Source of the DNA: Halorubrum lipolyticum DSM 21995
GTDB lineage: Archaea; Halobacteriota; Halobacteria; Halobacteriales; Haloferacaceae
NCBI RefSeq assembly: GCF_000337375.1
Contig: NZ_AOJG01000028.1
Coordinates: 204,237-242,385, forward strand
DNA: 38,149 nt
Reading direction: 5' to 3'
Shown: piece by piece, positions 6,210-24,584 of the stretch
Layout: the number at the start of each line of letters is the position of its first letter
How positions within the stretch are numbered: position 1 is the first letter of the stretch
Made by a program: the position numbers and the translations under genes
Notes under the pieces: generated by a model
Told to the model about the DNA's origin: nothing
Seen by the model: the letters and a program-made list of their open reading frames with translations, nothing else
Database searches by the model: none

Positions 6210-8672
6210 TCAGTCGGTCTTCTCCCCCTTCCTGCCGCTCTCGCCGCCCGTTCGGGCGTCGCCGTTCGAACCCTCAACGCGCGGGAACGCGCCGTCCATC
6301 GACGGCAGCGACTCGAACGACCGAGTCGTCGTGGCCATCTCGTTCGGTTCGACGGTCAGTTCCGCGCCGTCGGAAAACGACGCCTCGACCCGCTCGTCGC
6401 CGGCGTTGTACGCGACGTAGGTGCGCGTCGACCCGTCCCGAAACACGCCGTAGAACGGCGTGTCCGCTGACACGGTCGCGTCCGGCGTCCCCACGGCGTC
6501 GAGCGTGTGAATCCAGTGGGCGGTGTGGGCGCGGGATTCCGCGAAGTCGGCGGTCGCGTAGTCGGCGTCGTACCAGGCGCGCGCTTCGTCCGGATCCGAG
6601 AGCGCCCGGAACTCCCAGAGGACGTCCGTGTACCACCCGAGGTCGAACGACCCGTCGCCGCCGTCGTTCTCGAGCAGCTCCGACCAGTTCGCCGCGGCGG
6701 CGTCCCGGTTCCACCCGAGATACAGCGAGTGGCCGCCGACCGGGAGGTAGTTGATCGCGTGGATCGACTCCGGGTCCTGATCGAACCACGTGGCGTACTT
6801 GTATCCGCGTCCCCAGACGATGCCGGCGTAGTCGTACGGCCACGCGTCGGGGAGATTCTCGTCGGCGACGTCGAACCAGTACTCGAGGGCCGCGTGGATC
6901 TCATGGGTGTAGAGGTAGATGCCCGCGTCACGGATCGCGTCGTCGCCCGTCTGTTCCCCCCAGAGTATCATGGCGGCGTAGGCGTTGATCGCCTCCGACG
7001 ACGACTCCTGGTTACAGCCGGCCGGCAGCTCGCCGCTCCCGGACGCCCACGAGTGGCCCGCGTACGGACTGAAGTTCCGAAAGAACGGGTATCGGGAGTC
7101 GTCACGGTCGGGATTCGCATAGTCCCGGACGAGGTGGTCGACAACTCCTCCGTACGCGTCCTCGCGTGCCCACTGCGGGTCGGCCCGTGCGATCTCCGCC
7201 GCCGCCTTGACCCAGTAGCCGTAATGGAAGTGGTGGTCGTTCAGCTCGGCGTCGGCACCGAACCCCATCGGCGCTCCGTTCAACGTCCCCCAGACGCCGT
7301 CGTACCAGAACAGATCTCTCTCGTCGACGTCACCCTCGCTTCCCGCGGAGAACCACGTCTCTAACTCGTCGCGAATCGCGTCTCGGAACCGCTCCGCGGC
7401 GTCGTCGTCGTCGACCTGCTCGGCGATCGGAGCGAGCTGGAGGAGCCGTTCGAAGTTCTTCCCGGTCCAGTAGGTCCCGTCGCCCTGCCAGTCGCGAATG
7501 AGCGTGTCTTCGGCCTCGACTGCGTCGACGGCGTCCGCCAGGTTTGGAACGTCAGCCGCGTCGGGGAGGAAGGGAACGAGCCCGCGATACGGGAGTTCGG
7601 TCGCGAATCTCGAGCCGGCGTAGACCGGCATGTCGCCCCGCGGCGAGACGTAGGACCAGTCGCTCAGCTCGTTCGCGGTTCGCTTCGCTTGGTGGGGGTA
7701 GAGCGCGGTCAGCGTCTCGTCTGCCCGGCCGTGCTTCGCTTCGAGGTCGAACTCGTAGTCGGTGACGACCGCGGAGCGGTCCGCGTCGTACTCCCACGTC
7801 ACCGTGGTGTCCGTGACGAACGCGTACGCGTGGCGTCGGTAGGCGTTCAACGCCTTCGGCGTGGCCTCGGGGAGCACCGCGAGAGAGGCGTACCCCTCCT
7901 CACCGAGCCCGGACGAGGTTGCGTCGTCGTCGACACCGTCCCAGGTTGCCCCCGGCGGCGCGAACAGCCCGTAGTGACTGCCCGCGACCGACACTCCCAA
8001 CACGTGGTCTCGCTCGTGCCAGACCGACACGTCGTCTTCGAACGCCACGTCGATGCCGGCTCCGGCCGTCTCGAAGTAGACGAACGGTGACCCCTGCGTG
8101 AGCGTCACCTCCAGGCTGGCCTCGCCGTCGGTCTGTCGATAGGTGACGGACCAGTCACCGTAGTCGGCGACCTCGGCCGGCACGTCGGCGTCGATGCGTG
8201 GGTGAGAGACGGTCAGGTCGGGGGCGATGGGACCGGTACTCGCGTCCGGTGAGGACGTCAGCTCTGCGAAGTCGTCGGTCCGCTCGCCCCACGTGAACGG
8301 TGCGTCGCCGACCTGCCACTCGTCCGGATACGTGATCGCGAGTCCAGACTCGGTCACGCGCGCCGCCAGCGGATGGATCCAGAGGTTTTCAGAGCGCGGT
8401 CGCCAGAGGAGCGTCGTCCACCAGTCGTTCGTTGGATACGGTGCCGAGAGGTCGTCTACCGCGTAGACGGTCCGAGGCGGTGCACCCGCTGCGTCCGGTC
8501 GTCTGTGCGCGATGCTGCCCGCTCCGACCGCTTCGATGTCGGCGTCCGCCGCGCTCGCGTTGAAACTCCCCGTTGCCGTGAGTACGCCGCCCGCGAGCAG
8601 CCCTCCGAGCCACGTTCGCCTGGTCACGTTCGAATTCGATCCGTCGATCGGGGTGTGTGCGTTGTCTTCCAT
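6210..8672 (-). CDS. Tat-exported GH81 endo-beta-1,3-glucanase (laminarinase)
   Basis: 820 aa secreted enzyme that cleaves beta-1,3-glucan such as laminarin. A twin-arginine signal is at residues 17-42 (TRRTWLGG, then a hydrophobic stretch and an ASAA cleavage region). The GH81 start motif PTNDWWTTLLW follows. The catalytic core is intact: Asp479 in NDHHFHYGYW (acid) and Glu556/Glu560 in CNQESSSEA (base region), preceded by YAGHSWASG. The C-terminal part ends in a short beta-type segment and a charged tail (GGESGRKGEKTD). Length fits the family. A beta-glucanase in a haloarchaeon implies use of algal or yeast glucan. No glucan-specific transporter is adjacent; the ribose-type importer is 11 kb away. 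Confidence 0.93.
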   Translation of the reverse strand: MEDNAHTPIDGSNSNVTRRTWLGGLLAGGVLTATGSFNASAADADIEAVGAGSIAHRRPDAAGAPPRTVYAVDDLSAPYPTNDWWTTLLWRPRSENLWIHPLAARVTESGLAITYPDEWQVGDAPFTWGERTDDFAELTSSPDASTGPIAPDLTVSHPRIDADVPAEVADYGDWSVTYRQTDGEASLEVTLTQGSPFVYFETAGAGIDVAFEDDVSVWHERDHVLGVSVAGSHYGLFAPPGATWDGVDDDATSSGLGEEGYASLAVLPEATPKALNAYRRHAYAFVTDTTVTWEYDADRSAVVTDYEFDLEAKHGRADETLTALYPHQAKRTANELSDWSYVSPRGDMPVYAGSRFATELPYRGLVPFLPDAADVPNLADAVDAVEAEDTLIRDWQGDGTYWTGKNFERLLQLAPIAEQVDDDDAAERFRDAIRDELETWFSAGSEGDVDERDLFWYDGVWGTLNGAPMGFGADAELNDHHFHYGYWVKAAAEIARADPQWAREDAYGGVVDHLVRDYANPDRDDSRYPFFRNFSPYAGHSWASGSGELPAGCNQESSSEAINAYAAMILWGEQTGDDAIRDAGIYLYTHEIHAALEYWFDVADENLPDAWPYDYAGIVWGRGYKYATWFDQDPESIHAINYLPVGGHSLYLGWNRDAAAANWSELLENDGGDGSFDLGWYTDVLWEFRALSDPDEARAWYDADYATADFAESRAHTAHWIHTLDAVGTPDATVSADTPFYGVFRDGSTRTYVAYNAGDERVEASFSDGAELTVEPNEMATTTRSFESLPSMDGAFPRVEGSNGDARTGGESGRKGEKTD

Positions 8673-10429: not shown

Positions 10430-10653
10430 CGCATGAGTGAGAATAGCGCGTGTCGATAAATACGTTCCCCCGGACGGCAGTCGGAAACGCCGATCCGCCG
10501 CGGCCGATGAGGCCACCCCGCGGCGTGTGGGAGACACGGTCCCGGGGTGCTGGGTACCGACGTCGCACCGAGGACAACACTGGCCGGGCGCACTCGAAAT
10601 TCGGTGTCCGGGGACCGTAACACCTACAATCGGAACGGGAATAATCGGTGTGT

Positions 10654-11820
10654 ATGCAAGCAGTTCGCATAGCCGGTGCTGGTTCGACAGCGTTCGGCGC
10701 ATCTCCCGAACGGACCGGGCGCGACCTCTTCGGAGAGGCGGCCCGTATCGCCATCGACGACTCGGGCGTCCCGAGGGCGGCCATCGACCGTCTCTGTTAC
10801 GGGAACTTCGTCGGAACGGTCACCGAACGTCAGGGTCATCAGGCACCGCTGATGGCGAAAGCGGCGGGCGTGACCGCACCGGCGACGCGGTACGAGAGCG
10901 CGTGTGCGTCGGGCGGCGTCGCGCTGAAGAGCGCGGTCGAGGCGGTTCGGTCGGGAGCGGCCGACGTCGTCCTCGTCGGCGGGATGGAGCGGATGCACAA
11001 CGTCACGACGGAGCGGGCGACGGAGGGTCTGGCGATGGCGGCGGACCACCTCTACGAGAGTCGTGCCGGCGTGACGTTCCCCGGTGCGTACGCGCTCATG
11101 GCGCGCGCGTACTTCGAGGAGTTCGGCGGGACGCGAGCGGATCTCGCCGCGGTCGCGGTGAAGAATCACCGGAACGCCCTCGGAAACGACAAGGCTCAGT
11201 TCCAGACGGAGATATCCACGAGTGACGTCCTCGAAGCGCCCACGGTCGCCGACCCGCTCGGACTGTACGACGCCTGTCCGATCACCGACGGGGCGAGTGC
11301 CTGCGTCCTCGTCAGCGAGGCGTACGCAGAGGAGAACAACCTGGACGCACCGATTGCCGTCACTGGCGCCGGACAGGGGACCGACTCGCTGGCCTTACAG
11401 CAGCGCGACTCGCTCACGCGGACCCCGGCAACGACGACGGCGGCGACGGCCGCCTACGACGAGGCCGAGATCGCTCCGAGCGACATCGATCTGCTCGAAG
11501 TCCACGACTGCTTCACTATCGCCGAGGTACTGGCGCTGGAGGGGTTGGGAGTGTACGACCGCGGAGCGGCCATCGACGCCGCGAGGTCCGGCGAGACGAC
11601 GCGAGACGGCGATCTCCCCGTCAATCTCTCTGGCGGGCTGAAAGCGAAGGGGCACCCGGTCGGCGCGACCGGCGTGAGTCAGGTCGTCGAGCTGACGAAG
11701 CTGCTCCGCGGCGACCACGTCAACAGCGCCGCGGTTCCCGACGCCTCCCTCGCCGTCGCTCACAACGCCGGCGGCACGGTCGCGAGTGCGACCGTCCACG
11801 TCCTCGAGGTGCGTTCCTGA
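10654..11820 (+). CDS. Thiolase family protein (acetyl-CoA C-acyltransferase, SCPx type)
   Basis: 388 aa. Cleaves or forms the C-C bond of beta-ketoacyl-CoA. The nucleophile is Cys84 in ESACASGG, the active-site His is in HDCFT, and GGLKAKGHPVGATG with HNAGG forms the C-terminal catalytic loop. The His of HDCFT in place of the NEAF of bacterial thiolases, together with the adjacent DUF35 gene, places it in the archaeal/SCPx group that works with an OB-fold partner. ATG 10654 is preferred over a GTG two codons earlier. The stop overlaps the DUF35 start (TGATG), so the two are translationally coupled. Likely substrate acetoacetyl-CoA or a longer or branched beta-ketoacyl-CoA. Confidence 0.93.
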   Translation: MQAVRIAGAGSTAFGASPERTGRDLFGEAARIAIDDSGVPRAAIDRLCYGNFVGTVTERQGHQAPLMAKAAGVTAPATRYESACASGGVALKSAVEAVRSGAADVVLVGGMERMHNVTTERATEGLAMAADHLYESRAGVTFPGAYALMARAYFEEFGGTRADLAAVAVKNHRNALGNDKAQFQTEISTSDVLEAPTVADPLGLYDACPITDGASACVLVSEAYAEENNLDAPIAVTGAGQGTDSLALQQRDSLTRTPATTTAATAAYDEAEIAPSDIDLLEVHDCFTIAEVLALEGLGVYDRGAAIDAARSGETTRDGDLPVNLSGGLKAKGHPVGATGVSQVVELTKLLRGDHVNSAAVPDASLAVAHNAGGTVASATVHVLEVRS

Positions 11821-12203
11821 TGCGCGACCAGAGAGCGGACGGCTACGACGACCTGCTCGACGCGCTCGAATCCGACGCCGGCTACTACCTCTCCTGTCCG
11901 GCGGGCCACGGGTCGCTCCCGCCTCGACAGGTGTGCCCGACCTGTGGCGACGACGAGCTGTCGACGGAGCCACTGCCCGACACGGGGACGGTCGTCACGT
12001 TCACCGAGGTCGCCGTTCCGGCCCCGGCGTTCGCCGGCCAGACGCCAGTGGTGGTCATCGCCGACTTCGGACCGGTCCGGCTCACCGGACGGCTCCTAGA
12101 CGACCCGGACGCACTCGAGGTGGGAAGTGAGGTGGTACCGACCGTCGCGTCGTCTCCGGACGGCAGCCGTCACGTCGGTGCTCGGCTGGCGTCCAAGCGG
12201 TGA
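11820..12203 (+). CDS. DUF35 / OB-fold zinc-ribbon partner of thiolase
   Basis: 127 aa. The N-terminal helix (YDDLLDALESDAGYYLSC) leads into a rubredoxin-like zinc ribbon, with CPTC at about residues 40-43 and an earlier Cys at about 26. The OB-fold follows (TGTVVTFTEVAVPAP, VVIADFGPVRLTGRL). Proteins of this family bridge thiolase and HMG-CoA synthase in archaea and bind CoA substrates; here only a thiolase is adjacent. Overlaps the thiolase gene by one base. Only two Cys plus one are obvious, so the metal site may be three-Cys with a His (PAGH), which I infer rather than see proven. Confidence 0.88.
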   Translation: MRDQRADGYDDLLDALESDAGYYLSCPAGHGSLPPRQVCPTCGDDELSTEPLPDTGTVVTFTEVAVPAPAFAGQTPVVVIADFGPVRLTGRLLDDPDALEVGSEVVPTVASSPDGSRHVGARLASKR

Positions 12204-12286
12204 TCGCGGCTCGCTCACCGCACCGTACTGCGTCGTTTCCGCAGCGTCCCGGTAGCACTATACTGTCTCATTCTCATGGGGTCAGT

Positions 12287-12787
12287 ATGCAACGCACTCT
12301 CGAGGAGGAGACGCCGAGCGTCGCCGAGTCGGCGTTCGTCTCGGAACAGTCGTACCTGATCGGCGACGTCGTGGTCGGTGACCGTGCGAGCCTCTGGCCG
12401 TTCACCTGTCTTCGGGGAGACGGCGGCTCCACGGTCGTCGGCAAGGAGACGAACGTCCAGGAGTTCACGATGCTCCACGGCGCGATCCTCGGCGACGAGG
12501 TCACCGTTGGTCACAACGCCGTCGTCGATTACGCGACCGTCGAGGATCACTCCCTCGTGGGGATGGGGAGCCGCGTCCTCCGGGACGCGACGGTCGAATC
12601 CGACTGCATCGTCGCCGCCGGTGCGGTGGTCCTCCAAGACCAGACGATTCCGGAAGGACACCTCGCCTACGGCGCCCCGGCCGAGACGAAACCCCTCACG
12701 GACGACCAGCGCGACGAGATCGACCGCGTCCACCGGCACTACGTCGACCTCGGCCGTCGGTACAAAACGGCCGGCGGCTTCGAGTAG
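12287..12787 (+). CDS. Gamma-carbonic-anhydrase-like hexapeptide-repeat protein with an altered zinc site
   Basis: 166 aa left-handed beta-helix protein with imperfect hexapeptide repeats (IGDVVVGDRA, ILGDEVTVGHNAVVDYATVEDHSLVGMGSRV) and a C-terminal helix. Residues aligning with archaeal Cam are conserved for Arg (LRGD, Arg43), Gln58, His64 (MLHG) and His76 (GHNAVV). The third zinc ligand, five residues after His76, is Asp81 instead of His. ATG 12287 is chosen because MQRTLEEETPSVAESAFV begins the fold; a longer frame upstream has no family similarity. A CACTATACTG box lies about 30 bases before it. It could be a CoA-dependent acyltransferase-like or PaaY-like protein rather than a carbonic anhydrase; PaaY-type thioesterases occur in CoA pathways like this one. 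Confidence 0.88.
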   Translation: MQRTLEEETPSVAESAFVSEQSYLIGDVVVGDRASLWPFTCLRGDGGSTVVGKETNVQEFTMLHGAILGDEVTVGHNAVVDYATVEDHSLVGMGSRVLRDATVESDCIVAAGAVVLQDQTIPEGHLAYGAPAETKPLTDDQRDEIDRVHRHYVDLGRRYKTAGGFE

Positions 12788-12806
12788 TCGGAGCGGCCGG
12801 ACGATT

Positions 12807-12884
12807 GACTCCGCCGTCCACCACGGCGGGTCGACTTCACCGTCCACCGCGGCGGGTCGACTCCGCCGTCCACCGCGACGTATC
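12807..12884 (+). repeat. Tandem repeat, three 26-base units
   Basis: Three head-to-tail units at 12807-12832, 12833-12858 and 12859-12884 share the core GTCCACCGCGGCGGGTC with a few substitutions (the third ends GCGACGTATC). They lie between the hexapeptide-protein stop and the acyl-CoA synthetase promoter and are non-coding. Confidence 0.85.
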
Positions 12885-12911
12885 GACGAGTTCGCCCGCG
12901 GAGACCCCGAG

Positions 12912-12920
12912 ATTTTATAT
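12912..12920 (+). promoter_or_regulatory. TATA box of the acyl-CoA synthetase gene
   Basis: ATTTTATAT is a strong archaeal TATA element 33-41 bases before the ATG at 12953, placing the transcription start within a few bases of the start codon (leaderless or near-leaderless). Confidence 0.7.
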
Positions 12921-12952
12921 CTAATGCTGCAGCAACCTTGAGGTACGCAACC

Positions 12953-14992
12953 ATGACAGAGGACATCCAGCAAGAGTCATCGATCATCCACGAGCCGAGC
13001 CGGGAGTTCGTCGAGTCGACGAACGTCTACGAGTTCATGCAGACGTACGATATCGAGGACTACGACGAGCTCATCCGTCGAACGACGGAGGAGGTCGACG
13101 GCGTCGAGGCGTCGGGCGTCGAGTGGTTCTGGGACACCATGCCCGACTACCTCGACATCGACTTTTACGAGCCGTACGACACGGTTCGCGACAGCGCGGA
13201 GCGGAGCTCCGCTGGCAACCGGACGCAGTCCGGTGACAACAGCGACGGCCCGCAGTTCTCCGAGTGGTATCCCGGCGGCGAGATCAACCTCGCGCACAAC
13301 GTCGTCGATCGCCACGCCGCCGTCGACTCGGAGGAGAGAAACAGCGTCGCGTGTCTCTTCGAGGGCGAACCGGGCGACGTGAGGGAAGTGACGTACCACG
13401 AACTCGCTCGCCAGTCGAACAAGGTGGCGAACTACCTCGAATCGGTCGGCGTCGAGACCGGCGACACCGTGGGGATGTATATGCCGATGGTCCCGGAAGT
13501 CATCTCGATCCTGTACGGCTGTTTCAAGGTCGGCGCCATCGCGGTCCCGATATTCTCCGGGTTCGGTGTCGAGGCCACGGCCACGCGCATCGATGATTCG
13601 GAGTGCTCGGTGCTGTTCACCGGTGACGGGTTCTACCGGCGCGGGAAGTCGCTCACGCTCAAAGAGGCGGCCGACGACGCCATCGCGGCGGCGGGACACG
13701 TCGAACACACCGTCGTCTACGACCGCCTCGGCGACGACGCCGAAGTCCCGATGGGGGAGCGCGACGAGTGGTGGGACGACGCGATCGAAGGTCGTGACGA
13801 CGAGTACGACACCAAATCGCTTCCCTCCTCACAGGAGTCATTGCTGTTGTACTCGTCGGGGACGACCGGCAAACCGAAGGGGATCGTCCACACCCACGCC
13901 GGCGTGCAGCTGCAGTGTGCGAAGGAGATCTACTTCGGCTTCGACCACAAGCCCTCGGACCGGTTCTTCTGGGTCTCCGACATCGGCTGGATGATGGGTC
14001 CGTGGACGCTCATCGGCAACCACACGTTCGGTGGGACGGTGTTCATGTACGAGGGTGCGCCGGATCACCCCGAGCCCGACCGGTTCTGGGAGATGATCGA
14101 TCGACACTCGCTGTCGACGTTCGGCATTTCTCCGACGGCTATCAGAGCGCTGCGCAAACACGGAGACGAGTGGGTCGAGGGGCACGACCTCTCCTCGATA
14201 CGCCTGCTGGGTTCGACCGGAGAGCCGTGGGACCCCGAGTCGTGGCAGTGGTTCTACGAACACGTCGGGGGAAGCGAGGCGCCGATAATCAACATCTCCG
14301 GCGGCACCGAGATCTGCGGCTGTTTCCTGATGCCGATGCCGACCCAGCCGTTGAAGCCCACGTCGCTCGGCGGTCCGGGACTCGGCATGAACATCGACAT
14401 CGTCGACGACTCCGGGACCTCCATCGCCGACGATCACGAGCGCGGCTTCCTCGTCGCGCGCGACTCCTGCCCGTCGATGACGAAGTCGCTGTGGTCCGGC
14501 GACGAGCGCTACCTCGAGGAGTACTGGTCGACGTGGGACGATCTGTGGGATCACGGCGACTGGGCACAGAAGGACGAAGACGGCTTCTGGTTCCTCCACG
14601 GACGGGCCGACGACGCGCTCAACGTCGCGGGTCGGAAGGTCGGCCCGGCCGAGATAGAGGGCGTCCTCACCGAACACGAGGCCGTGAACCAGGCCGCCGC
14701 CGTCGGCGTCCCCGACGAGACCACCGGCACCGCGGTCGTGACGTACGTCGTCCTCGAAGACGGCTCGGACGGGAGCGACGACCTCCGCGCCGAACTGTCG
14801 GCGCTCGTCGGCGAGGAGCACGGGAAACCGTTCCGCCCGCGCGAGATCCTCTTCGTCTCCGACTTCCCGAAGACGCAGTCGGGGAAGGTGATCCGCCGGG
14901 CCATCTCGTCGCTCTACCAGGGCGAGGAGCTGGGCGACATGTCGAGCATCGAGAATCCCGAGGCGCTCGACGAGATCGACGCGGCGTCGTAG
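12953..14992 (+). CDS. AMP-forming acyl-CoA synthetase, acetyl-CoA synthetase-like
   Basis: 679 aa adenylate-forming enzyme. The N-terminal ACAS_N segment (FSEWYPGGEINLAHNVVDRHA) is preceded by an acidic extension of about 110 residues. The P-loop YSSGTTGKPKG begins at Tyr300, the A5 region is SGGTEICGCF, the hinge is HGRADDALNVAGRKVGPAEIE, and the catalytic A10 lysine is Lys645 in PKTQSGKVIRR. An in-frame TTG five codons upstream exists, but the TATA position and family start favour ATG 12953. ACS subfamily members use acetate, propionate or acetoacetate; the long N-terminus and the neighbouring thiolase make acetoacetate or a short branched acid plausible, but this is inference. Confidence 0.93.
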   Translation: MTEDIQQESSIIHEPSREFVESTNVYEFMQTYDIEDYDELIRRTTEEVDGVEASGVEWFWDTMPDYLDIDFYEPYDTVRDSAERSSAGNRTQSGDNSDGPQFSEWYPGGEINLAHNVVDRHAAVDSEERNSVACLFEGEPGDVREVTYHELARQSNKVANYLESVGVETGDTVGMYMPMVPEVISILYGCFKVGAIAVPIFSGFGVEATATRIDDSECSVLFTGDGFYRRGKSLTLKEAADDAIAAAGHVEHTVVYDRLGDDAEVPMGERDEWWDDAIEGRDDEYDTKSLPSSQESLLLYSSGTTGKPKGIVHTHAGVQLQCAKEIYFGFDHKPSDRFFWVSDIGWMMGPWTLIGNHTFGGTVFMYEGAPDHPEPDRFWEMIDRHSLSTFGISPTAIRALRKHGDEWVEGHDLSSIRLLGSTGEPWDPESWQWFYEHVGGSEAPIINISGGTEICGCFLMPMPTQPLKPTSLGGPGLGMNIDIVDDSGTSIADDHERGFLVARDSCPSMTKSLWSGDERYLEEYWSTWDDLWDHGDWAQKDEDGFWFLHGRADDALNVAGRKVGPAEIEGVLTEHEAVNQAAAVGVPDETTGTAVVTYVVLEDGSDGSDDLRAELSALVGEEHGKPFRPREILFVSDFPKTQSGKVIRRAISSLYQGEELGDMSSIENPEALDEIDAAS

Positions 14993-15183: not shown

Positions 15184-15627
15184 TCAGTCGGACCGCTCGG
15201 CGTAAGGCGTAACGCCCGCGGCGTCCATCTGATCGTGGAAGCGCTTCCGTCGGGCCTTCCGCTGCTCGGTCGCCATCCGGTCGTTGGTCCAGATCTGGCC
15301 GCTGGTGTCCTGGTGGACCTCACAGCTGTCGAACTCGTCGAGCGCCTCGACGCGCTCGCGCACCTCGTCGTTGATATCGAGGAAGTACGTGCACCGCTGT
15401 GAGGTCAAGAGGAGGGTTACCTCCACGTCGCGGTCGTCGATGGAGATGGACTCGACGAGACCCAGATCGAGGATGCTGATCGGATGGTCGCTCATACAGC
15501 TACACGGGTCAAGCACCTCGTCGAGTTCGGCTTTGACGCGCGTTTTGCGGTCGTCGTCGAACTCCGTGTCCGGAGTGACGTGCGTGGCTTCCTCCGTTCG
15601 CTCGTAGGGGTCGGTGTGTGCGGACAT
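15184..15627 (-). CDS. DUF59/MIP18-like metal-sulfur cluster assembly protein
   Basis: 147 aa. The DUF59 core runs from about residue 45 to 110: HPISILDLGLVESISIDDRDVEVTLLL, then TSQRC with the conserved Cys79 and a helix (DINDEVRERVEAL). An additional N-terminal CSC pair (Cys42, Cys44) precedes the core. The family (PaaD, SufT, MIP18) helps insert Fe-S or other metal centres into target enzymes. The ATG at 15627 lies 2 bases after the amidohydrolase stop, so it is co-transcribed and probably serves that enzyme or one close by (the tungsten/iron-sulfur oxidoreductase 2 kb away is a candidate). The basic C-terminal tail (EQRKARRKRF) is unusual for an acidic proteome. Confidence 0.88.
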   Translation of the reverse strand: MSAHTDPYERTEEATHVTPDTEFDDDRKTRVKAELDEVLDPCSCMSDHPISILDLGLVESISIDDRDVEVTLLLTSQRCTYFLDINDEVRERVEALDEFDSCEVHQDTSGQIWTNDRMATEQRKARRKRFHDQMDAAGVTPYAERSD

Positions 15628-15629
15628 GG

Positions 15630-16724
15630 TCAGTCGTCGGACGCGAGCGCCGAGTCGGCCTCGTAGGTCGACCACGGGTCGGCGGGGTAGTCGCCGCTCT
15701 CTTCGCGCTCTCGCCGGAGCTGGTCCCACTTGTCGCCCTCGATGTCCTTTTTAATCTGCTCGGGGTCCTTATCGAGGAGCCGGAGCGCGTTCTTGCCCAG
15801 GATCTTCTCTTTCATGTCCTGGGTGACTTCGGGGTAGTCGTAGTCCTCGATGAGGTCTTCGGGCATCTCGAAGTTCCGGATGCCCTCGATCGGGGGCTGC
15901 GGGTGCAGCGCCGTCGCGCCGCCGGCGTAGACGATGCGGTCCGGTCCGGCCCAGTAGAGCATCTCGCCGAGCGCCTTCGCGAACTTCCGCGGGCGGGTGT
16001 TGACGAGACAGGCCGTGTTCTCGAGATTGGCGTAGACGTTGTCGTGGCTCGCCATCGCGAGGACCGTCTCCTCGACGAACGAGAAGCCCGCGTGGATGAT
16101 CTCGAAGTTGACGTCGGGGAACGAGTTGGCCGCGTCCTCGATGTCGTCCGGTTTGAAGTAGCGGACGGGCGCCGTCGCGAACGGGATGAACTTGTGGATC
16201 GCCAGCGTGTCCACCTCCGAGTCGGCCACCCGCTGGAGGAGGGGCCAGACGGCGTCTTCGGTCAGCTGGAGCGAGAGGTCGTTGCCGTTCTGGTAGCGCG
16301 CGGGGTAGAACTTGATGCCCTCGACCCCGTCTTTCGCGGCGAACTCCTCTATCTGGTCGCCCGCGTCGTCTTCGAGGGGGTTGACGTCGACGTACATCGA
16401 GACGCGCTCTGGGTTCTGCTCCATGAACTCGAACCCCTTCTCACGGGAGACGTAGCCGTCGTGGAAGTAGTCGTCGAGCGGCAGCGAGTGGTACACCGAG
16501 TAGTCGATCTGACTCTCCAAAAAGAGGAGCCGAGCGAGTTCTTCGGGCTGGTGATCGCGGTAGAACACCTCTTCGGACGGCACGTAACCGTCGGGGAGAA
16601 TCTTCGCCCCCATCTCGTACGTCTCATCGTCCCAGACCTGTGCGTGCGGGTGTTTGTGGTTCTCCGGCGTGTGGTTAAAGCAGTGTGACACGGAATCCAC
16701 TACCAGCGAGTCGCTGTCTAGCAT
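15630..16724 (-). CDS. Amidohydrolase-family (COG2159/ACMSD-like) protein with a degenerate metal site
   Basis: 364 aa TIM-barrel protein. The normal N-terminal DxHxH metal motif is here Asp10-x-Val12-x-His14 (VVDSVSHCFNHTPEN), so one His is lost. Internal His residues are kept (AIHKF, IIHAGF). The usual C-terminal GSDxP that carries the catalytic Asp reads YAGGATALHP. It therefore binds metal differently or acts as a non-hydrolytic protein. Start ATG 16724 is chosen because a TATA box (16749-16757) predicts transcription from about 16727; an ATG at 16760 would lie inside or before that box. Forms a two-gene operon with DUF59 (2-base gap). From memory, similar pairs accompany diiron propane/acetone monooxygenases in actinobacteria. 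Confidence 0.85.
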   Translation of the reverse strand: MLDSDSLVVDSVSHCFNHTPENHKHPHAQVWDDETYEMGAKILPDGYVPSEEVFYRDHQPEELARLLFLESQIDYSVYHSLPLDDYFHDGYVSREKGFEFMEQNPERVSMYVDVNPLEDDAGDQIEEFAAKDGVEGIKFYPARYQNGNDLSLQLTEDAVWPLLQRVADSEVDTLAIHKFIPFATAPVRYFKPDDIEDAANSFPDVNFEIIHAGFSFVEETVLAMASHDNVYANLENTACLVNTRPRKFAKALGEMLYWAGPDRIVYAGGATALHPQPPIEGIRNFEMPEDLIEDYDYPEVTQDMKEKILGKNALRLLDKDPEQIKKDIEGDKWDQLRREREESGDYPADPWSTYEADSALASDD

Positions 16725-16876: not shown

Positions 16877-17632
16877 ATGTCTGAGCGCTTGCAGGGGAAG
16901 ACGGCACTGGTCACCGGTGGCTCCTCCGGCAACGGACGGGCGATCGCTCGACGGTTCGCCGAGGAAGGTGCGAACGTGACGGTCGCCGACGTCCGCGAGG
17001 ACCCGCGGATGGGCGGTGAACCGACACACAACCTCATCGAGGGAGAGGGCGGAAACGCGCAGTTCGTCCGCTGCGACGTCAGCTCGGTCGACGATCTCCA
17101 CGCGGCGGTCGACGCCACCGTCGAGGCGTTCGGCTCGCTAGACGTGATGGTCAACAACGCCGGGGTCGAGCGTCAAAAGCCATTAGAAGACGTCACGGAG
17201 GACGACTACGAGTGGCTCATGGACATCAATCTCAAAGGCGTGTTCTTCGGGAGCCAAGCGGCCGTCGAGGTAATGCGCGACCAGGACGAGGGGGGCAGCA
17301 TCATCAATATGTCCTCGATCGGCGGTATCCGCGGCTTGGAGAACTCCTCGCTGTACTGTACCTCGAAAGGCGGGGTGACGAACTTGACACGGGAGCTAGC
17401 CGTCGAACACGGTGAACACGACGTCCGCGTCAACGCCCTCAATCCGGGGTTCATCGAGACGGCGATGACGATGGAGGACGGTGACACGGCCGGCGGCATT
17501 CTCGATCAGACGCCGCTGGGGCGGGCGGGCCAACCCGATGAGGTCGCGGACGCGGCGCTGTTCCTCGCGAGCGACGAGTCGTCGTTCGTCACGGGGCACA
17601 ACCTCGTCATGGACGGCGGCTTCACCGCCTGA
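16877..17632 (+). CDS. Short-chain dehydrogenase/reductase (classical SDR)
   Basis: 251 aa NAD(P)-dependent oxidoreductase. The cofactor motif is TGGSSGNGRAIA (residues 13-24) and Asp38 after the second strand favours NAD. NNAGV is at 93-97, the catalytic Ser is in NMSSIGG (146/147), and Tyr160-Lys164 form YCTSK. The C-terminus GHNLVMDGGFTA is typical of 3-oxoacyl-reductase/glucose-1-dehydrogenase-type SDRs. The gene sits directly upstream of the aldehyde oxidoreductase (53 bases) and divergent from the amidohydrolase. It probably oxidises an alcohol or hydroxy acid of the same pathway; substrate unknown. Confidence 0.94.
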   Translation: MSERLQGKTALVTGGSSGNGRAIARRFAEEGANVTVADVREDPRMGGEPTHNLIEGEGGNAQFVRCDVSSVDDLHAAVDATVEAFGSLDVMVNNAGVERQKPLEDVTEDDYEWLMDINLKGVFFGSQAAVEVMRDQDEGGSIINMSSIGGIRGLENSSLYCTSKGGVTNLTRELAVEHGEHDVRVNALNPGFIETAMTMEDGDTAGGILDQTPLGRAGQPDEVADAALFLASDESSFVTGHNLVMDGGFTA

Positions 17633-17650
17633 CTCGGGACGGGGTGAGCA

Positions 17651-17660
17651 ACACTTATTG
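17651..17660 (+). promoter_or_regulatory. TATA box of the aldehyde oxidoreductase gene
   Basis: ACACTTATTG lies 26-35 bases before the ATG at 17686, giving a leaderless start. It shares the ACACTTAT core with the promoter of the upstream SDR. Confidence 0.6.
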
Positions 17661-17685
17661 TTTCGTGCCCGCGACATCCGTGCGT

Positions 17686-19362
17686 ATGCTTCACGCAGAG
17701 GGACCTCTCTTGACGGTCGACATCGGTGACCGCTCGACGGAAACGACCGATATCGGCGAGATTAACGAGACGTTCATCGGCGGGCGCGGCGTCGCGACGC
17801 GGCTCGCTCACGACCGACTCCCGTTCGACGCCGACGCGCTGGGCGCGGAGAACCGACTCTACTTCGCGACGGGACCGATGCAGTCGTCGACCATGTCGTT
17901 CACCGGCCGGATGAACTGCACGGGTATCTCGCCGCTCACGGGCGGACTGCTCTCGTCGAACGCCGGCGGATTCATGTCGCGCAACTTCGCTGCGACGGGT
18001 TACAGCGCCGTCGAACTCGTGGGGGCGAGCGACGAACTCGTCGTCGTTCACGTCACCGACACCGGCGTCGAGTTCGAACCCGTCCCGGATCTCGCGGGCG
18101 CGACGGTGCCGGAGACGGTCGAGTACATCGAGACGGAACACGGCATGGAGAGCGAGCACGTCGCCTGTATCGGCCCCGGCGGGGAGAATCGAGTCCGCTT
18201 CGCCTCCATCATCACCTCGGAGTCGAGGGCGTTCGGCCGCGGAGGGCTGGGTGCCGTTCTCGGGGCCAAAGGGGTCAAGGCGATCACGTTCGACGGCGAT
18301 TCGAGCCCGGAGATCGAGATCCCCCCGATCCAGATGGACGTCCACCGCGACGCGGCCACCTCCGACCACATCATGAAACGGCAGGGGACGACGTCGGTGA
18401 CCGAACTGGCCAACGAGGTGTCGGCCCTGCCGACGAGGTACTTCTCCGAGTTGCAGTTCGAGGGGGTCGAGGGCATCAACGGGGACAGAGTCGAGGAGAA
18501 GAAGTTCAAGAAGGCGACCTGCTCGTCGTGTGCGTTCGCCTGTAAACTCCCGACGAAAGACGAGGCGCGCGGCGTCGAGACGGAGGGACCGGAGTTCGAG
18601 ACGGTGATGTCGTTCGGGTCGAATGCCGGCGTCGACGACATCGTCGACGTGATGCAGTCGAACGAGCTGTGCGATCGGTACGGACTGGACAGCATCACCT
18701 GCGGGAACGTCGTCTCCGCGTACTTGGCGAGCGAAGAGGAGTTCGGGAACACGGAGCTGATCTTCGAGACGGTCGAGAAGATCGCTCATCGAGAGGGCGT
18801 CGGCGACCTCCTCGCGGAGGGGATCGACCGCTTCCACGAGGAGCTGGACGTCGAGAATTGGACCGTCAAGGGGCTCGACTTCGCCGCTCACGACGGCCGC
18901 ACCCTGAACGGTCAGGGGCTGTCGTACGCGACGGCCACCAGGGGTGCAGACCACATGTTTACCACGATGTACGCGTGGGAGTACCCCCTCGTCGACGGCG
19001 AGGAGGCGTACGATCCCACCGGGCTCGAGGGGAAACCCGAGATGGTCATCGAGCAAGAGAACGCCCGTGCACTGGAGGACTGCGGCATCATCTGTCGGTT
19101 CTCGCGGAGCTTCATGACGCCAGAACGGCTCGAGGGGCTGTTCTCGACCGACTACGAGGCGCTTCTGAACGTGGGGTCGGCGGTCGTCGACCTCGAACGG
19201 CACTTCAACAATCAGCGCGGTGTCGACCGTGAAGACGACACGCTCCCCTACTCGCTTCCGGACTTCGAGGCGGCGCTCGACGAGTACTACGACCGCCGGG
19301 GCTGGACCGAGGAAGGCACCGTGCCGAGCGGTCACGTCGACGCCGTCGCGAGCGCCGACTGA
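17686..19362 (+). CDS. Tungsten-type aldehyde:ferredoxin oxidoreductase family protein
   Basis: 558 aa member of the AOR family, which oxidises aldehydes to acids and passes electrons to ferredoxin through a tungsto-bispterin and a [4Fe-4S] cluster. The N-terminal domain carries FIGGRGVATRL (pterin-contacting) and TGPMQSSTMSFTGRMN. The cluster ligands are visible as Cys279-x2-Cys282-x3-Cys286 (CSSCAFAC) and Cys470, the last in the expected DxxxxC context (DCGIICRF). Length is slightly shorter than hyperthermophile AORs of about 605 aa, with the difference at the C-terminus. ATG 17686 is chosen from the family start LLTVDIGDRST and the TATA position; an upstream in-frame start lies before the promoter. 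No MoaD-like gene is adjacent. Confidence 0.93.
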   Translation: MLHAEGPLLTVDIGDRSTETTDIGEINETFIGGRGVATRLAHDRLPFDADALGAENRLYFATGPMQSSTMSFTGRMNCTGISPLTGGLLSSNAGGFMSRNFAATGYSAVELVGASDELVVVHVTDTGVEFEPVPDLAGATVPETVEYIETEHGMESEHVACIGPGGENRVRFASIITSESRAFGRGGLGAVLGAKGVKAITFDGDSSPEIEIPPIQMDVHRDAATSDHIMKRQGTTSVTELANEVSALPTRYFSELQFEGVEGINGDRVEEKKFKKATCSSCAFACKLPTKDEARGVETEGPEFETVMSFGSNAGVDDIVDVMQSNELCDRYGLDSITCGNVVSAYLASEEEFGNTELIFETVEKIAHREGVGDLLAEGIDRFHEELDVENWTVKGLDFAAHDGRTLNGQGLSYATATRGADHMFTTMYAWEYPLVDGEEAYDPTGLEGKPEMVIEQENARALEDCGIICRFSRSFMTPERLEGLFSTDYEALLNVGSAVVDLERHFNNQRGVDREDDTLPYSLPDFEAALDEYYDRRGWTEEGTVPSGHVDAVASAD

Positions 19363-19572: not shown

Positions 19573-20565
19573 CTACTTCACCACGTCGATCTTTTCACGG
19601 TCGATCGACAGGGCCACCGCCCCGACCACCACGAGTCCAAGGATAATTTCCTGGATGAACGAGTCGATCCCGGTCAGGTTCATGCCGTTGTTGAGGACCG
19701 CGATAACGAGCACCCCCAGAATGGTCCGGTGCGGCCCGCCGACGCCGCCGGTCAGCGCCGTCCCGCCCATGACGATGGCGGCGATGCTGGGGAGCATGAG
19801 CCCGCTTCCGATGTTCGGGGAGGCCGACGAAATGCGCAGCGTCAACAGCACGCCGGCGGTCCCACAGAGCAGTCCCGACAGTACGAACGGGTAGATCTTG
19901 TACCGGTCGACCTTCGCACCGGCCAGCTCCACGACGCGCTCGTTCTCGCCCAGCGCGAAGCAGTACCGACCGAACTTCGTCCGGAAGGCTAACACGATGG
20001 TGCCGACGTAGATGAGCAGCCCCCAGAGCACGAGGTTGGGAATCCCGAGGACTTCGCCGTTCGAGATGGTCCGGATGGCGGGGTTCCGGAACGTGATGGT
20101 CGACCCGCCGGTAATGATCTTCCCGACCCCGGCCATCACCGAGAGCGTCCCGAGCGTGACGAGGAACGAGGGCACCTTGAGCTTCGTGAAGATGATGCCG
20201 TTGAACAGGCCGGCGAGCATCCCGACGCCGATGGCGATCGGGATGGCCAACAGGCCCAAGCCGAACTCCGAAATCAGGACGACGGTCACGACGCCCGTCA
20301 GTAGCACCATCGACTCGACGGAGAGGTCGATGCTCTGCTGGAGGATGGGGAAGGTCCCCGCGAGCGCGACCAGCAGCAGCGTGACGGCGTTTTTCGCGAC
20401 GTTGTCGATCAGGTTGCCCTCGGTCAAAAAGCGATCCGACGCGAACGAGAATGTGATTATCAACCCGAACAGCATGACGAACGGGCCCAGATCCTGTATC
20501 CAGTCCTTAAGCGTGCGCTGTTCTCGTTGGTCGGTGATCCACTCGCTGATGCTGCTTGTACTCAT
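19573..20565 (-). CDS. Ribose/sugar-type ABC transporter permease (RbsC family)
   Basis: 330 aa polytopic membrane protein with about nine hydrophobic segments (for example residues 29-42, 60-75, 85-118, 140-155, 175-195, 230-250, 290-320). The BPD_transp_2 signature region GRYCFALGENERVVELAGAKVDRYKI and the glycine-rich GGTALTGGVGG loop are typical of the RbsC/XylH group. It is the third gene of a minus-strand operon; its ATG lies 2 bases after the ATPase stop. Imports a monosaccharide or similar polar molecule. Confidence 0.93.
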   Translation of the reverse strand: MSTSSISEWITDQREQRTLKDWIQDLGPFVMLFGLIITFSFASDRFLTEGNLIDNVAKNAVTLLLVALAGTFPILQQSIDLSVESMVLLTGVVTVVLISEFGLGLLAIPIAIGVGMLAGLFNGIIFTKLKVPSFLVTLGTLSVMAGVGKIITGGSTITFRNPAIRTISNGEVLGIPNLVLWGLLIYVGTIVLAFRTKFGRYCFALGENERVVELAGAKVDRYKIYPFVLSGLLCGTAGVLLTLRISSASPNIGSGLMLPSIAAIVMGGTALTGGVGGPHRTILGVLVIAVLNNGMNLTGIDSFIQEIILGLVVVGAVALSIDREKIDVVK

Positions 20566-20567
20566 TG

Positions 20568-22142
20568 TCAGATCATCTCCTGTATCAGGTCTTGTTCGGT
20601 CGGTTTGTTCCCCGGCGAGGCGTCTATGGCATCGCCGACGAACTCCCCGTTCGCCATCACGGCGATGCGGTTGGACATACCGATGACCTCGGGCAGCTCG
20701 TCGCCGATGAAAACGATCGAGACGCCTTTGTCGGTCAACTCACGGCAGAGACGATACACCTCCTCTTTGGCACCGACGTCGATGCCTCGGGTCACGTTGT
20801 CCATCACGAGTATCGGCGTCTCTTGGGCCAGCCAGCGGGCGATAACGACCTTCTGCTGGTTCCCGCCGCTCAGGCCGTGGACCAGCGCGTTGGGACCCGG
20901 CGTCTTGATCGACAGCTCCTCGATGGCGTCAATGGTCGCCTCCTTCTCGGCGTCGAGGTCGAGTAACGGTACGTTGCCGTTCATGTCTCGAACCATCGCG
21001 AGAGAGGTGTTGACTAACACCGACTGGTAGAGTAACAGACCCTCGGACTTCCGGTCTTTCGGGATGTAGCCGACGCCCGCGTCGACCATCTCGGAAACCG
21101 TCGGACTCTCCAGGGTTGTGCCGTCGACTGAGACCGAGCCCTGCGTTATGACGAGGTCGCCCGCGAGCAGGCGACCCAGCTGCTGTTTTCCGGAGCCCTC
21201 GACGCCGACGATCCCGAATATCTCGCCCTCGCGGACGGAAAACGAGACCGGCCCGACGGTATCACCGTAGACCGCGCCGTCGACGGTCAGGGCCGTCTCG
21301 CCGAGGTCGGTTTCGCGCTGCTGGTCGGGGACCTGGTAGTACTCGTCGGCGGTCTCTCGGCCCACCATCGCCTTCTGCAGCGAGTCAGTGGTGGCGTCGG
21401 CCGTGGCCATGTCCGCCACGCGCTCGCCGTCTTTGAGAACGTAGATCCGGTCGGATATCTCCAGCACCTCGTCGAGCTCGTGGGAGACGAAGACGAACGT
21501 CGCCCGGTCCCGCAGGTCGTTCACGAGGTCGAAGAGGATCTGGCGGCCGCTCTCTTCGAGCGCGGCCGTCGGTTCGTCGAGAAGGATGACAGGATTCTCG
21601 GACTTCTGTGAGACGTGAAACGCCTTCGCGATTTCGAGCATCTGGCGCTCGTTGAACGAGTAGTTTCGGACGCGCTCGTCCACGTCGATGTTGATGCCCA
21701 AGTCGTCGACGAATGCCTGCGCCTCCTTGCGCATCGTCTCTTTCTCGAGCACTCCAAGGCGTTCGATCTCCCGCCCGAGATAGAGGTTTTCGTACCCCCG
21801 CATGGTCTTGATGATGTCCTGCTCTTGATGGACGAGCGAGACGCCGTAGTCCGCCGCCTCACGTGGGTTCGTGAACGTGACGGCTTCCCCGTCGACGAAC
21901 AGCTGTCCCTCGTCGGCCTGCAACACCCCGGTCAGGATGTTCAGGAGCGTGCTCTTGCCCGCGCCGTTCTCTCCGACGAGACCGATAACCTCGCCGTGGT
22001 CGACTGCCAGCGATACGTCCTTGAGGGCCTGTACGTGGCGGAACGACTTCGAGATACCCTCGACGCGGAAGCTGTGGTCGTCGCCGCCGGCCGGGTCGGA
22101 TTGGTCCACGTTCGTCGCATTGGTGTGAGTCTGTGATGCCAT
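20568..22142 (-). CDS. Ribose/sugar-type ABC transporter ATPase (RbsA family, two NBDs)
   Basis: 524 aa with two fused nucleotide-binding domains. NBD1 has Walker A GENGAGKST, signature-like YSFNERQMLEIAKAF and Walker B ILLDEPTAALE. NBD2 has the usual degenerate Walker A (GVEGSGKQQL), signature LSGGNQQKVVIARWLA and Walker B ILVMDNVTRGIDVG, where the catalytic Glu is replaced by Asn. In RbsA-like proteins the second Walker B usually reads DEPTRGIDVG, so this Asn is notable. ATG 22142 is preferred to a GTG 15 bases upstream. Spacing to the binding-protein stop is 18 bases. Confidence 0.94.
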   Translation of the reverse strand: MASQTHTNATNVDQSDPAGGDDHSFRVEGISKSFRHVQALKDVSLAVDHGEVIGLVGENGAGKSTLLNILTGVLQADEGQLFVDGEAVTFTNPREAADYGVSLVHQEQDIIKTMRGYENLYLGREIERLGVLEKETMRKEAQAFVDDLGINIDVDERVRNYSFNERQMLEIAKAFHVSQKSENPVILLDEPTAALEESGRQILFDLVNDLRDRATFVFVSHELDEVLEISDRIYVLKDGERVADMATADATTDSLQKAMVGRETADEYYQVPDQQRETDLGETALTVDGAVYGDTVGPVSFSVREGEIFGIVGVEGSGKQQLGRLLAGDLVITQGSVSVDGTTLESPTVSEMVDAGVGYIPKDRKSEGLLLYQSVLVNTSLAMVRDMNGNVPLLDLDAEKEATIDAIEELSIKTPGPNALVHGLSGGNQQKVVIARWLAQETPILVMDNVTRGIDVGAKEEVYRLCRELTDKGVSIVFIGDELPEVIGMSNRIAVMANGEFVGDAIDASPGNKPTEQDLIQEMI

Positions 22143-22160
22143 GGGGGAATGTGACACGGA

Positions 22161-23510
22161 TTATTTGAGCGGGTTCGATTGGAACCGGTCCTGGTACAGC
22201 TGGGCGGTCTCCTCTTGGACCGCACTATCGGTGTAGGCGCCCGGCAAGGAATAGCCGCTCGGTTTGTCCTCATCCTTCCAGTCGAGGACCTCTTTCATGT
22301 CGTCGAGGTTCATGGGCTGCATGTCGATCTGGGGGTCCCAGGCGTCCTCGCCGGACTCGACGACGGACATCTTCTCCCAGTCGTAGGGCGTCTCGCCCGA
22401 GAAGATCGCCTCGTTGTAGTCGGCGGCGTCGACGACCGGAAGCCGGTCGATCGTGTCGGTCCAGTCGTCGGGGTTCTTGACGCAGACCGGCGCGTTGAAC
22501 GACATCATCTTTTCGGCGTCGCTGAGCCTGTGGCCGTTGAGGTAGTCGTGGCACTTCGCGACCGACCAGCCGGCCTGCCACGGACCCATGCCCGAGACGG
22601 TCCCGGTCATCCGGTCCTCGGCGACGGCCGCGAGCCCGGGCTCGCTGGCGTCGATGCCGACGACGGGCACGTCGATGTCGTTCTCCTCGAGGACGGTGAT
22701 CCCACCGAGCGCGACGGCGTCGTTCTGGCCGAAGAAGCCGTCGATGTCGTCGCCGTACTGGGAGACCTTGTCGTTCATGACATCGCGGGCGTCCGAGCGG
22801 ATGAAGTTGCCCGGCTGGCGGGACCCAGCCATCTCGATGTCGGGGTACTCTTCTAACGCCAGGTCGACGCCCTTGTTCCGACCGATGTTCGGGGCCGTGC
22901 CGCGGTTCCCCTCGATGTGGACGAAGGTCCCGCTGCCCCCCATCGCCTCGAACAGCATCTTCGCGCCGCTGTACGCGTGGTTGACGAAGTGCGGCGTGAA
23001 GAACGTCGCGTACTCCTCACCGGCGTCCTGCGGGACGTACCAGTCGGCGATGGTGACGGCGAGGACACCGGGGGTGCCCGCCTCGACCAGCGTCTCCGCC
23101 AGCGTAATCGCGGCGGCGTTGGTGTACGTCTGGCCGACGATGAAGTCGGCGTCGTTAGACACTGCCGAGTCAAACTGCTGTTGCTGTGTCTGTACCTCGC
23201 CGTTGTTCGTCTGGACGTTCGTGTCGTAGCCGAAGGCCTCGCACGCCTCGAGGTAGCCTTTCTCCCAGCTGAGCCAGTAGGAGTTCTGTCGGTTCGCGAT
23301 GGACGCCATCGAGGTCATCGAGCCGCCGGACCCGCCCGAGTCGTCGGAGGATGACGACGAGCCGCCGCCCGACGAGCCGTCACCGCCCGAATCGCCACCG
23401 TCAGAGTCGCCCGTACACCCCGCCAAGCCGCCCAGTGCGACCGCGGATCCGCCCATAGTGGTTTTCTTCATGAACCGGCGCCTCGTCTGATTGGTGCTAT
23501 CTTGTGCCAT
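22161..23510 (-). CDS. Sugar-type ABC transporter substrate-binding lipoprotein (Peripla_BP_4)
   Basis: 449 aa. A twin-arginine motif (TRRRFM, residues 9-14) and a hydrophobic stretch end in a lipobox LAGC with Cys32, so it is exported by Tat and lipid-anchored outside the membrane. A long Gly/Ser/Asp-rich linker follows (residues 33-65), as usual for haloarchaeal binding proteins. The mature domain has the two-lobed ribose-binding fold (NRQNSYWLSWEKGYLEACEAFGYD, GIDASEPGLAAV, FGQNDAVALGG). It is the first gene of the importer operon. A TATA-like element and a palindrome lie upstream. The ligand cannot be told from sequence. Confidence 0.94.
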   Translation of the reverse strand: MAQDSTNQTRRRFMKKTTMGGSAVALGGLAGCTGDSDGGDSGGDGSSGGGSSSSSDDSGGSGGSMTSMASIANRQNSYWLSWEKGYLEACEAFGYDTNVQTNNGEVQTQQQQFDSAVSNDADFIVGQTYTNAAAITLAETLVEAGTPGVLAVTIADWYVPQDAGEEYATFFTPHFVNHAYSGAKMLFEAMGGSGTFVHIEGNRGTAPNIGRNKGVDLALEEYPDIEMAGSRQPGNFIRSDARDVMNDKVSQYGDDIDGFFGQNDAVALGGITVLEENDIDVPVVGIDASEPGLAAVAEDRMTGTVSGMGPWQAGWSVAKCHDYLNGHRLSDAEKMMSFNAPVCVKNPDDWTDTIDRLPVVDAADYNEAIFSGETPYDWEKMSVVESGEDAWDPQIDMQPMNLDDMKEVLDWKDEDKPSGYSLPGAYTDSAVQEETAQLYQDRFQSNPLK

Positions 23511-24412: not shown

Positions 24413-24433
24413 GCCCTCCCATCTCGAACAATG

Positions 24434-24462
24434 ATTAATAAATATTAGGATCCCACGGTGGG
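24434..24462 (-). promoter_or_regulatory. TATA box and palindrome in the SDR/BKACE divergent region
   Basis: On the minus strand TTTATTAAT (rc of 24434-24442) lies about 26 bases before the SDR start at 24412. Just upstream is the 11-base palindrome CCCACGGTGGG (24452-24462). The region drives the SDR on one side and BKACE (ATG 24585; a GAATTATCAC box about 25 bases before it) on the other. Confidence 0.5.
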
Positions 24463-24584
24463 TCGAGCCCATCGCACCCGTACGTCCCACTCGGAAATCG
24501 CCGTGGAAACGAGTGGCGTCACCGAACGGCCGTCTCGGATTCGCCCCCGGAAGAATTATCACGATAAAACGGCTGGGTTGGGGT

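Follow-up and report, generated by a model that had tools for sequence, protein, structure and literature searches.

Proteins of the amidohydrolase family PF04909 are usually annotated as hydrolases. In diiron monooxygenase operons, an amidohydrolase gene and an adjoining small gene are recorded without a function in the Fig. 5 legend of PMC9213486 and in PMC6849523. In the proteome of one strain, the amidohydrolase-like product of the Mim cluster had a relative abundance of 3.2% (PMC7176365). It is also reported that the amidohydrolase-related dinuclear oxygenases pair a PF04909 protein with a Rieske protein (PMC10401708, PMC10811679). An adjacent small Rieske protein was found at 90% of AibH2-like loci and permeases at 40% (PMC10401708), and the ligands of AibH2 are D25, H27, H211, E265, D337 and H340 (PMC7782822). 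With regard to DUF59 proteins, PaaD is required in vivo and dispensable in vitro for the PaaABCE diiron epoxidase (PMC4498308), and no precedent that we found comes nearer to a DUF59 protein serving one client of its own. In this study, we describe a gene pair in a stretch of 38,149 nucleotides from Halorubrum lipolyticum DSM 21995 (contig NZ_AOJG01000028.1, positions 204,237 to 242,385; hereafter the window), in which an amidohydrolase-fold protein with an altered metal site (the barrel protein) is followed by a DUF59 protein. We consider, at a probability of about 0.5, that the pair is an obligate two-protein catabolic metalloenzyme with the DUF59 protein as its dedicated iron partner.

The gene pair and the loci compared

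The barrel protein scores 74.1 bits against PF04909 (Amidohydro_2; gathering cut-off 26.4), and the DUF59 protein scores 38.0 bits against PF01883 (cut-off 23.5) and matches the TM0487 structure 1uwd with an E value of 1.6e-4. The stop codon of the amidohydrolase gene (15630) is separated from the ATG of the DUF59 gene (15627) by 2 bp, so the tight coupling described in an earlier note on this DNA is borne out. The closest named relatives of the locus are from Halorubrum, with 98% identity.

The comparison set consisted of 64 loci of the same, reduced type and 21 loci of a sister type in which the metal site is complete (full type), and the window (L001) was not counted among the 64. The reduced-type loci come from haloarchaea, Actinomycetota and Pseudomonadota. 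They include four loci that were reached through two collections and lie on contigs of equal length (L003/L064, L008/L056, L009/L091 and L012/L088), and removal of near-copies left 51 reduced-type rows. Of 38 plasmid matches, 19 were fetched. In a set of 194 genomes, 70 gave a match, of which the 30 with loci were typed. A motif-free profile search of one actinobacterial family (150 genomes) and two proteobacterial orders (196 and 194 genomes) gave the 38 further loci that were typed.

Residues of the metal site

Of the canonical PF04909 ligands, the first His of HxH and the Asp of strand beta-8 are missing from the window protein, and the histidines of beta-5 and beta-6 (H177, H211) are present. 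His at position 12 was found in none of the 64 reduced-type loci versus all 21 full-type loci; the reduced type has V in 58, I in 4, S in 1 and T in 1, although the evidence for V12 is partly biased by retrieval, as D[AS]V[ST]H formed part of one of the two motifs used in the scan. H14 is retained in 64/64 reduced-type and 20/21 full-type loci. A Peribacillus protein of the full type (L106, 7944-8969) carries Ala14, one ligand being lost in an otherwise intact type. Position 269 is never acidic in the reduced type (63 Gly, 1 Ala) and is Asp in 21/21 full-type loci, and the AGGATAL of the window protein (267-273) aligns with GSDYALW of the full-site homologues.

These losses are accompanied by residues that the full type does not share. 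Position 79 is His in 63/64 reduced-type loci and Gln in 19/21 full-type loci, while Glu235 is present in 64/64 versus 0/21, where Ala is found instead. E219 and N233 occur together in all 64, and the full type has D219 and G233. His274 is invariant in the reduced type (64/64) and absent from the first 21 full-type loci, but 6 of 18 full-type rows in the motif-free set also have it, so H274 alone is no marker of the reduced type. Lys138 is common to all types (64/64, 21/21 and 3/3 other typed loci). The barrel protein has no conserved cysteine, and for this reason a cysteine-ligated site inside the barrel was rejected.

The loss of one His of DxHxH and of the C-terminal Asp, proposed from the window alone, was thus confirmed and is conserved in 64 loci. 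The reduced metal site is a clade trait, and neither chance nor a single damaged gene explains it; full-site homologues, which could have overturned the observation, were found only in a separate clade. At the level of aligned residues, the suggestion of the earlier note that the site is rewired is supported, and the change goes beyond damage.

The DUF59 partner

The partner protein changes together with the barrel. A second cysteine in a DPC motif is present in 64/64 reduced-type partners and in 0/20 full-type partners, which are approximately twice as long and have DPE and one conserved cysteine (20/20 loci with a partner). The linkage counts, obtained by a hidden Markov model scan, placed the DUF59 gene downstream on the same strand in 39/39 named genome loci, often overlapping the amidohydrolase gene, and the linkage recurs across genomes. 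A DUF59 gene is present at 84 of 88 typed loci; the other four are L029 (contig end), L101 (DUF59 upstream) and L102 and L103 (a NifU-domain protein). At L058 the DUF59 gene also lies upstream of the amidohydrolase gene. Gene fusion was considered as proof of a complex and was dropped, since none of the 84 pairs is fused.

The motif-free set gave a similar picture. All 16 reduced-type loci in it have a partner with the DPC motif, the general cysteine and the tryptophan; 13 of these loci are new, and L112, L142 and L149 repeat L084, L083 and L079. A DPE-type partner occurs at 17 of 18 full-type loci, with the DPC cysteine in 0/17, and L147, a distant full-type locus, has no partner. The DUF59 gene is immediately downstream on the same strand in 33 of 38 loci and upstream in four of the other five. 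Four loci of this set belong to a further type with V12, M79, A235 and E269 (Glu type). Together with L101, the Glu-type loci (L119-L122) have a DPCC...C DUF59 gene directly upstream in 5/5 cases.

In two plasmid loci of Ensifer and Shinella (L102 8810-9118 and L103 8807-9103), a NifU-domain CxxC protein replaces the DUF59 protein. It lies behind a related amidohydrolase, which has DxAxH and Glu269. Every type seen without His12 has a partner with at least two cysteines (DPC in the reduced type, DPCC in the Glu type, CxxC in the NifU type), while in partners of the His12 type a single cysteine is conserved.

Predicted structure and phylogeny

The barrel mouth is the place of metal binding in enzymes of this fold. 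The AlphaFold2 model of the barrel protein had a predicted local distance difference test (pLDDT) of 90.7 and a predicted template modelling score (pTM) of 0.91. In this model, strands 2, 5 and 7 have H79, H177 and N233 as their last residues, strands 1 and 6 are followed by H14 and H211, E235 lies past strand 7, the segment past strand 8 contains G269 and H274, and K138 is near the end of strand 4. According to the predicted strand assignment, the conserved residues are all at the barrel mouth.

The closest solved fold is 3irs (Z 26.1, root-mean-square deviation 2.7, 268 residues aligned). A search of the PDB with the single sequence gave no match; at E <= 0.001 the reduced-type profile matched 3irs only, and the full-type profile matched 3irs and two others weakly. 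The Foldseek and VIA lists contained mostly decarboxylases and are informative on the fold only.

A branch supported at 100/98 separates the 51 reduced-type rows from the others and the full type is supported at 100/100, in a tree that is unrooted and has several long bacterial branches. Haloarchaeal rows appear at three or more places among the bacterial rows, and the window group adjoins a protein of Solirubrobacterales. This scatter suggests repeated transfer.

Gene cluster around the pair

Table 1. Features of the window and their positions, with DUF59 residues numbered from Met = 1
Feature	Position	Strand	Remark
Amidohydrolase-fold protein PF04909, 364 aa	15630..16724	-	Open reading frame and translation; reduced-type metal site V12, G269
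DUF59/FeS_assembly_P protein, 147 aa	15184..15627	-	Open reading frame sequence; PF01883
D10-S-V12-S-H14	16683..16697	-	Val in place of first His of HxH; H14 retained
His79	16488..16490	-	End of strand beta-2 (strand 75-79, AlphaFold2); gained in reduced type
Lys138	16311..16313	-	Last two residues of strand beta-4; common to all types
His177	16194..16196	-	End of strand beta-5; 64/64 reduced-type, 21/21 full-type
His211	16092..16094	-	Directly past strand beta-6; 64/64 reduced-type, 21/21 full-type
Glu235	16020..16022	-	Directly past strand beta-7; gained in reduced type
Gly269	15918..15920	-	Replaces catalytic beta-8 Asp
His274	15903..15905	-	Loop past beta-8; invariant in reduced type
D-P-C42 of DUF59 protein	15502..15510	-	Second cysteine; DPE in full-type partners
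Cys79 of DUF59 protein	15391..15393	-	General DUF59 cysteine; 64/64 reduced, 20/20 full-type partners
Trp113 of DUF59 protein	15289..15291	-	64/64 reduced-type partners; unconserved in full type
Short-chain dehydrogenase/reductase (SDR) oxidoreductase, divergent neighbour	16877..17632	+	Pfam; 22/22 group-1 loci
Aldehyde ferredoxin oxidoreductase-family protein (AOR)	17644..19362	+	AFOR_N, AFOR_C; 18/22 group-1 loci
ABC transporter: permease, ATPase, Peripla_BP_4 binding protein	19573..23510	-	Pfam; permease in 22/22 group-1 loci
Second SDR	23636-24562	-	Pfam; in group-1 loci with enough flank
Beta-keto acid cleavage enzyme (BKACE)	24513-25439	+	Pfam; in group-1 loci with enough flank
Thiolase, OB-fold, hexapeptide (gamma-carbonic-anhydrase-like) and acetate-CoA-ligase-like proteins	10648..14992	+	Pfam, NCBIfam; many group-1 loci

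The window and its close relatives (group 1, 22 loci, of which L032 and L064 are on the same contig) share a gene cluster around the pair (Table 1). Some of these loci are short, and absences other than the pattern of AOR and aldehyde dehydrogenase may reflect missing flank. AOR is present in 18 loci and aldehyde dehydrogenase in 9: AOR only in 13, both in 5, and aldehyde dehydrogenase only in 4 (L052, L067, L072 and L073). The two enzymes replace each other in the group-1 clusters. The AOR gene of the window starts about 0.9 kb from the start of the amidohydrolase gene, closer than the 2 kb given earlier, and AOR was in none of the fetched loci outside group 1.

The gamma-carbonic-anhydrase-like hexapeptide protein (12200-12787, plus strand) lies inside the thiolase/CoA-ligase run and is kept in many group-1 clusters. 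The window also encodes a glycoside hydrolase family 81 (GH81) protein (6210-8672, minus strand) with both Pfam GH81 domains and, by eye, a twin-arginine-like N-terminus, and a related protein of 1032 aa is found near the pair at L033.

Contexts in other genomes and search for a client

Elsewhere, the contexts of the pair are varied but mostly catabolic. Other haloarchaeal pairs are solitary or adjoin acyl-CoA genes. Among 107 neighbours at 14 bacterial loci, SDR (9), AMP-binding (7), P450 (5), thiolase (4), TonB receptor (4) and TetR (4) were the most frequent families; the alignment of neighbours left out 16 of 123 listed proteins. These 107 neighbours had no metalloenzyme client in common, and the Rieske family PF00355 was not among the 25 of 125 families listed for them. 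The direct neighbour in the window is the DUF59 gene.

The earlier note stated that no monooxygenase is in the window, and this holds for the whole genome with respect to the soluble diiron monooxygenase alpha subunit, which gave no match under a search that detected three positive controls. PaaA/PaaC (PF05138) also gave no match, in a search that detected 4 of 14 controls. A PF02332 family search detected 0 of 14 controls and was not used as evidence. As the genome (3.43 Mb) is 99.4% complete and in 41 contigs, absence of these subunits is likely, not certain. Of 14 other genomes with the reduced pair, which do not include that of L099, the alpha subunit was missing in 12 and present in two Amycolatopsis.

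The statement of the earlier note that such pairs occur in diiron monooxygenase operons was right as to occurrence (PMC9213486), but those pairs are of the full-site sister type. At eight plasmid loci with full-type pairs, the soluble diiron monooxygenase alpha gene was present in four (L057, L104, L105 and L107) and absent from the stretches read of L058, L059, L106 and L108. Among the 13 full-type loci from haloarchaea (L018-L030), 12 have an adjoining gene for a Zn-dependent alcohol dehydrogenase. L058 and the haloarchaeal L019-L030 combine the full-type pair with this dehydrogenase and have no monooxygenase in the stretch read. These loci suggest that the full-type pair may also act without a monooxygenase.

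Interpretation of the pair

We propose that the TIM barrel has given up the canonical site of HxH, His, His and Asp and has acquired a His/Glu-rich one at the same mouth instead, the candidates being H14, H79, H177, H211, E235 and H274, with K138. In such an enzyme the barrel would act as the catalyst, and the DUF59 protein, with its two invariant cysteines, would load the metal or carry a cluster as a source of electrons, and would most likely be bound to the barrel as it does so. The uptake system, the two SDRs, AOR or aldehyde dehydrogenase, CoA ligase, thiolase/OB-fold proteins and BKACE around the pair point to a role near an aldehyde step, and the pair probably forms or consumes an intermediate there. 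The proposal rests on the constant gene pairing, the matched residue changes in barrel and partner, the single branch of the reduced type, the correlated divergence of the two proteins, the place of the gained residues in the predicted fold and the mostly catabolic contexts; from these, metal binding, iron transfer, catalysis, complex formation and the pathway step are inferred. A physical complex has modest support from modelling. In a read-through chain of both proteins (514 residues), pTM was 0.84, compared with approximately 0.7 expected by rough arithmetic for an undocked partner, and the pLDDT of the C-terminal tail of the barrel (351-360) was 86 compared with 63 alone, the lead sequences of the two predictions being different. 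It is also possible that the two chains share one metal site, with the DPC cysteine of the partner entering the barrel and replacing the lost first histidine. The partners with at least two cysteines in all types without His12, and with one in the His12 type, speak for such a site, but we regard it as quite unlikely.

Several points weigh against the proposed two-protein metalloenzyme. The split between reduced and full type is approximately one event in the tree, so the matched changes amount to one correlation kept by selection rather than to a series of independent cases. In the Glu type (L101, L119-L122) the DPC cysteine is present although H79 and E235 are not, and the cysteine thus tracks the loss of His12 and not the gained residues. 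The divergence of the barrel correlated with that of its partner over 41 non-redundant loci (r 0.917; 0 of 2000 permutations as high), which counts in favour of the pair, yet this measure ignores the relatedness of the organisms and r was 0.577 for 13 bacterial loci; shared ancestry alone could yield such a correlation. With regard to the complex, pTM is not an interface score, and the fusion is artificial with L065 as its lead sequence. Finally, some proteins of PF04909 have no cofactor (PMC10811679).

The last point, together with the loss of two canonical ligands and the nearness of COG3618-type and decarboxylase folds, would suit a metal-free hydrolase, lactonase or decarboxylase with a structural partner. 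However, four invariant histidines and Glu235 stand at the predicted barrel mouth and the partner cysteines are kept in all DUF59 types, and a metal-free enzyme is in our opinion improbable. It is still more doubtful that the barrel is a degenerate amidohydrolase with a scaffold role towards the DUF59 protein; the canonical ligands are gone, as this would predict, but the mouth positions are invariant over several phyla, which is beyond the expectation for a scaffold.

The earlier note suggested a maturation module. In this reading the pair would build a metal centre for a different enzyme, namely AOR in this cluster and diiron monooxygenases elsewhere. DUF59 proteins are linked to iron-sulfur maturation, the requirement for PaaD in vivo and not in vitro (PMC4498308) fits such a role, and full-type pairs sit in diiron monooxygenase operons. 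Nevertheless, AOR is lacking in 4 of 22 group-1 clusters with the pair, and maturation of AOR was rejected as a general role. The alpha subunit of the monooxygenase is missing from the window genome and most other genomes searched, and the bacterial neighbours suggest no common client, although a distant one may exist. In addition, the abundance of the full-type amidohydrolase beside the Mim subunits (PMC7176365) is high for a catalytic maturase. Taken together, maturation of another enzyme appears unlikely for the reduced pair.

An oxygenase of the amidohydrolase-related dinuclear type, in which the pair activates O2 and DUF59 takes the role of the Rieske protein, has its precedent in AibH2, SfbO and PtmU3 with their adjacent Rieske proteins and permeases (PMC10401708). 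The solved structures with a matching fold include DitZ (Z 20.2) and TruffO (Z 19.3), but they are no nearer than many decarboxylases; a literature search for DitZ gave no relevant paper. When the six AibH2 ligands (PMC7782822) were mapped by order along the barrel, without alignment at the residue level, only H14 and H177 had clear counterparts, and V12, H211 and G269 of the window protein stood at the Asp, Glu and Asp of AibH2. This oxygenase role is accordingly rather improbable. As the ligand set differs, the window pair may work alike but is no member of the dinuclear oxygenases.

The clade extends across archaea and bacteria, with different conserved candidate ligands and a partner that changed alongside, so its members are probably misannotated as "amidohydrolase". 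Exact positions for mutation are given by the matched residues. Since the reduced pair occurs here without a monooxygenase, the pair known from propane/acetone monooxygenase operons becomes easier to study.

Comparison with known systems

In the literature within our reach, most subscription papers being outside it, we found no description of the reduced type and no function assigned to the pair. The closest solved fold, BB4693 (3irs), is an uncharacterised PF04909 protein with 16% identity. PaaD, SufT and SUF_assoc share the PF01883 domain and weak NCBIfam matches with the window partner, which differs from them in DPC instead of DPE and in its neighbour. Identity with PaaD was rejected (43.3 of 180 bits, and no PaaA/PaaC in the genome), as was identity with SufT (29.6 of 202.6 bits) or SUF_assoc (38.8 of 143.4 bits).

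The oxygenases AibH2, SfbO and PtmU3 resemble the window pair in having a PF04909 barrel and a small iron-sulfur partner, often in catabolic operons with transporters. Their ligand set is unlike, and their partner is a Rieske protein, whereas that of the window is DUF59. The pair of the diiron monooxygenase operons (prm and mim, with GroEL and alcohol dehydrogenase) has H12, D269 and a long partner with DPE and a single cysteine, in contrast to V12, G269 and the DPC partner of 147 aa in the window, whose genome is without a soluble diiron monooxygenase match. However, it consists of the same two families in adjacent genes, and the barrel profiles match over 341 columns with an hhalign probability of 100.
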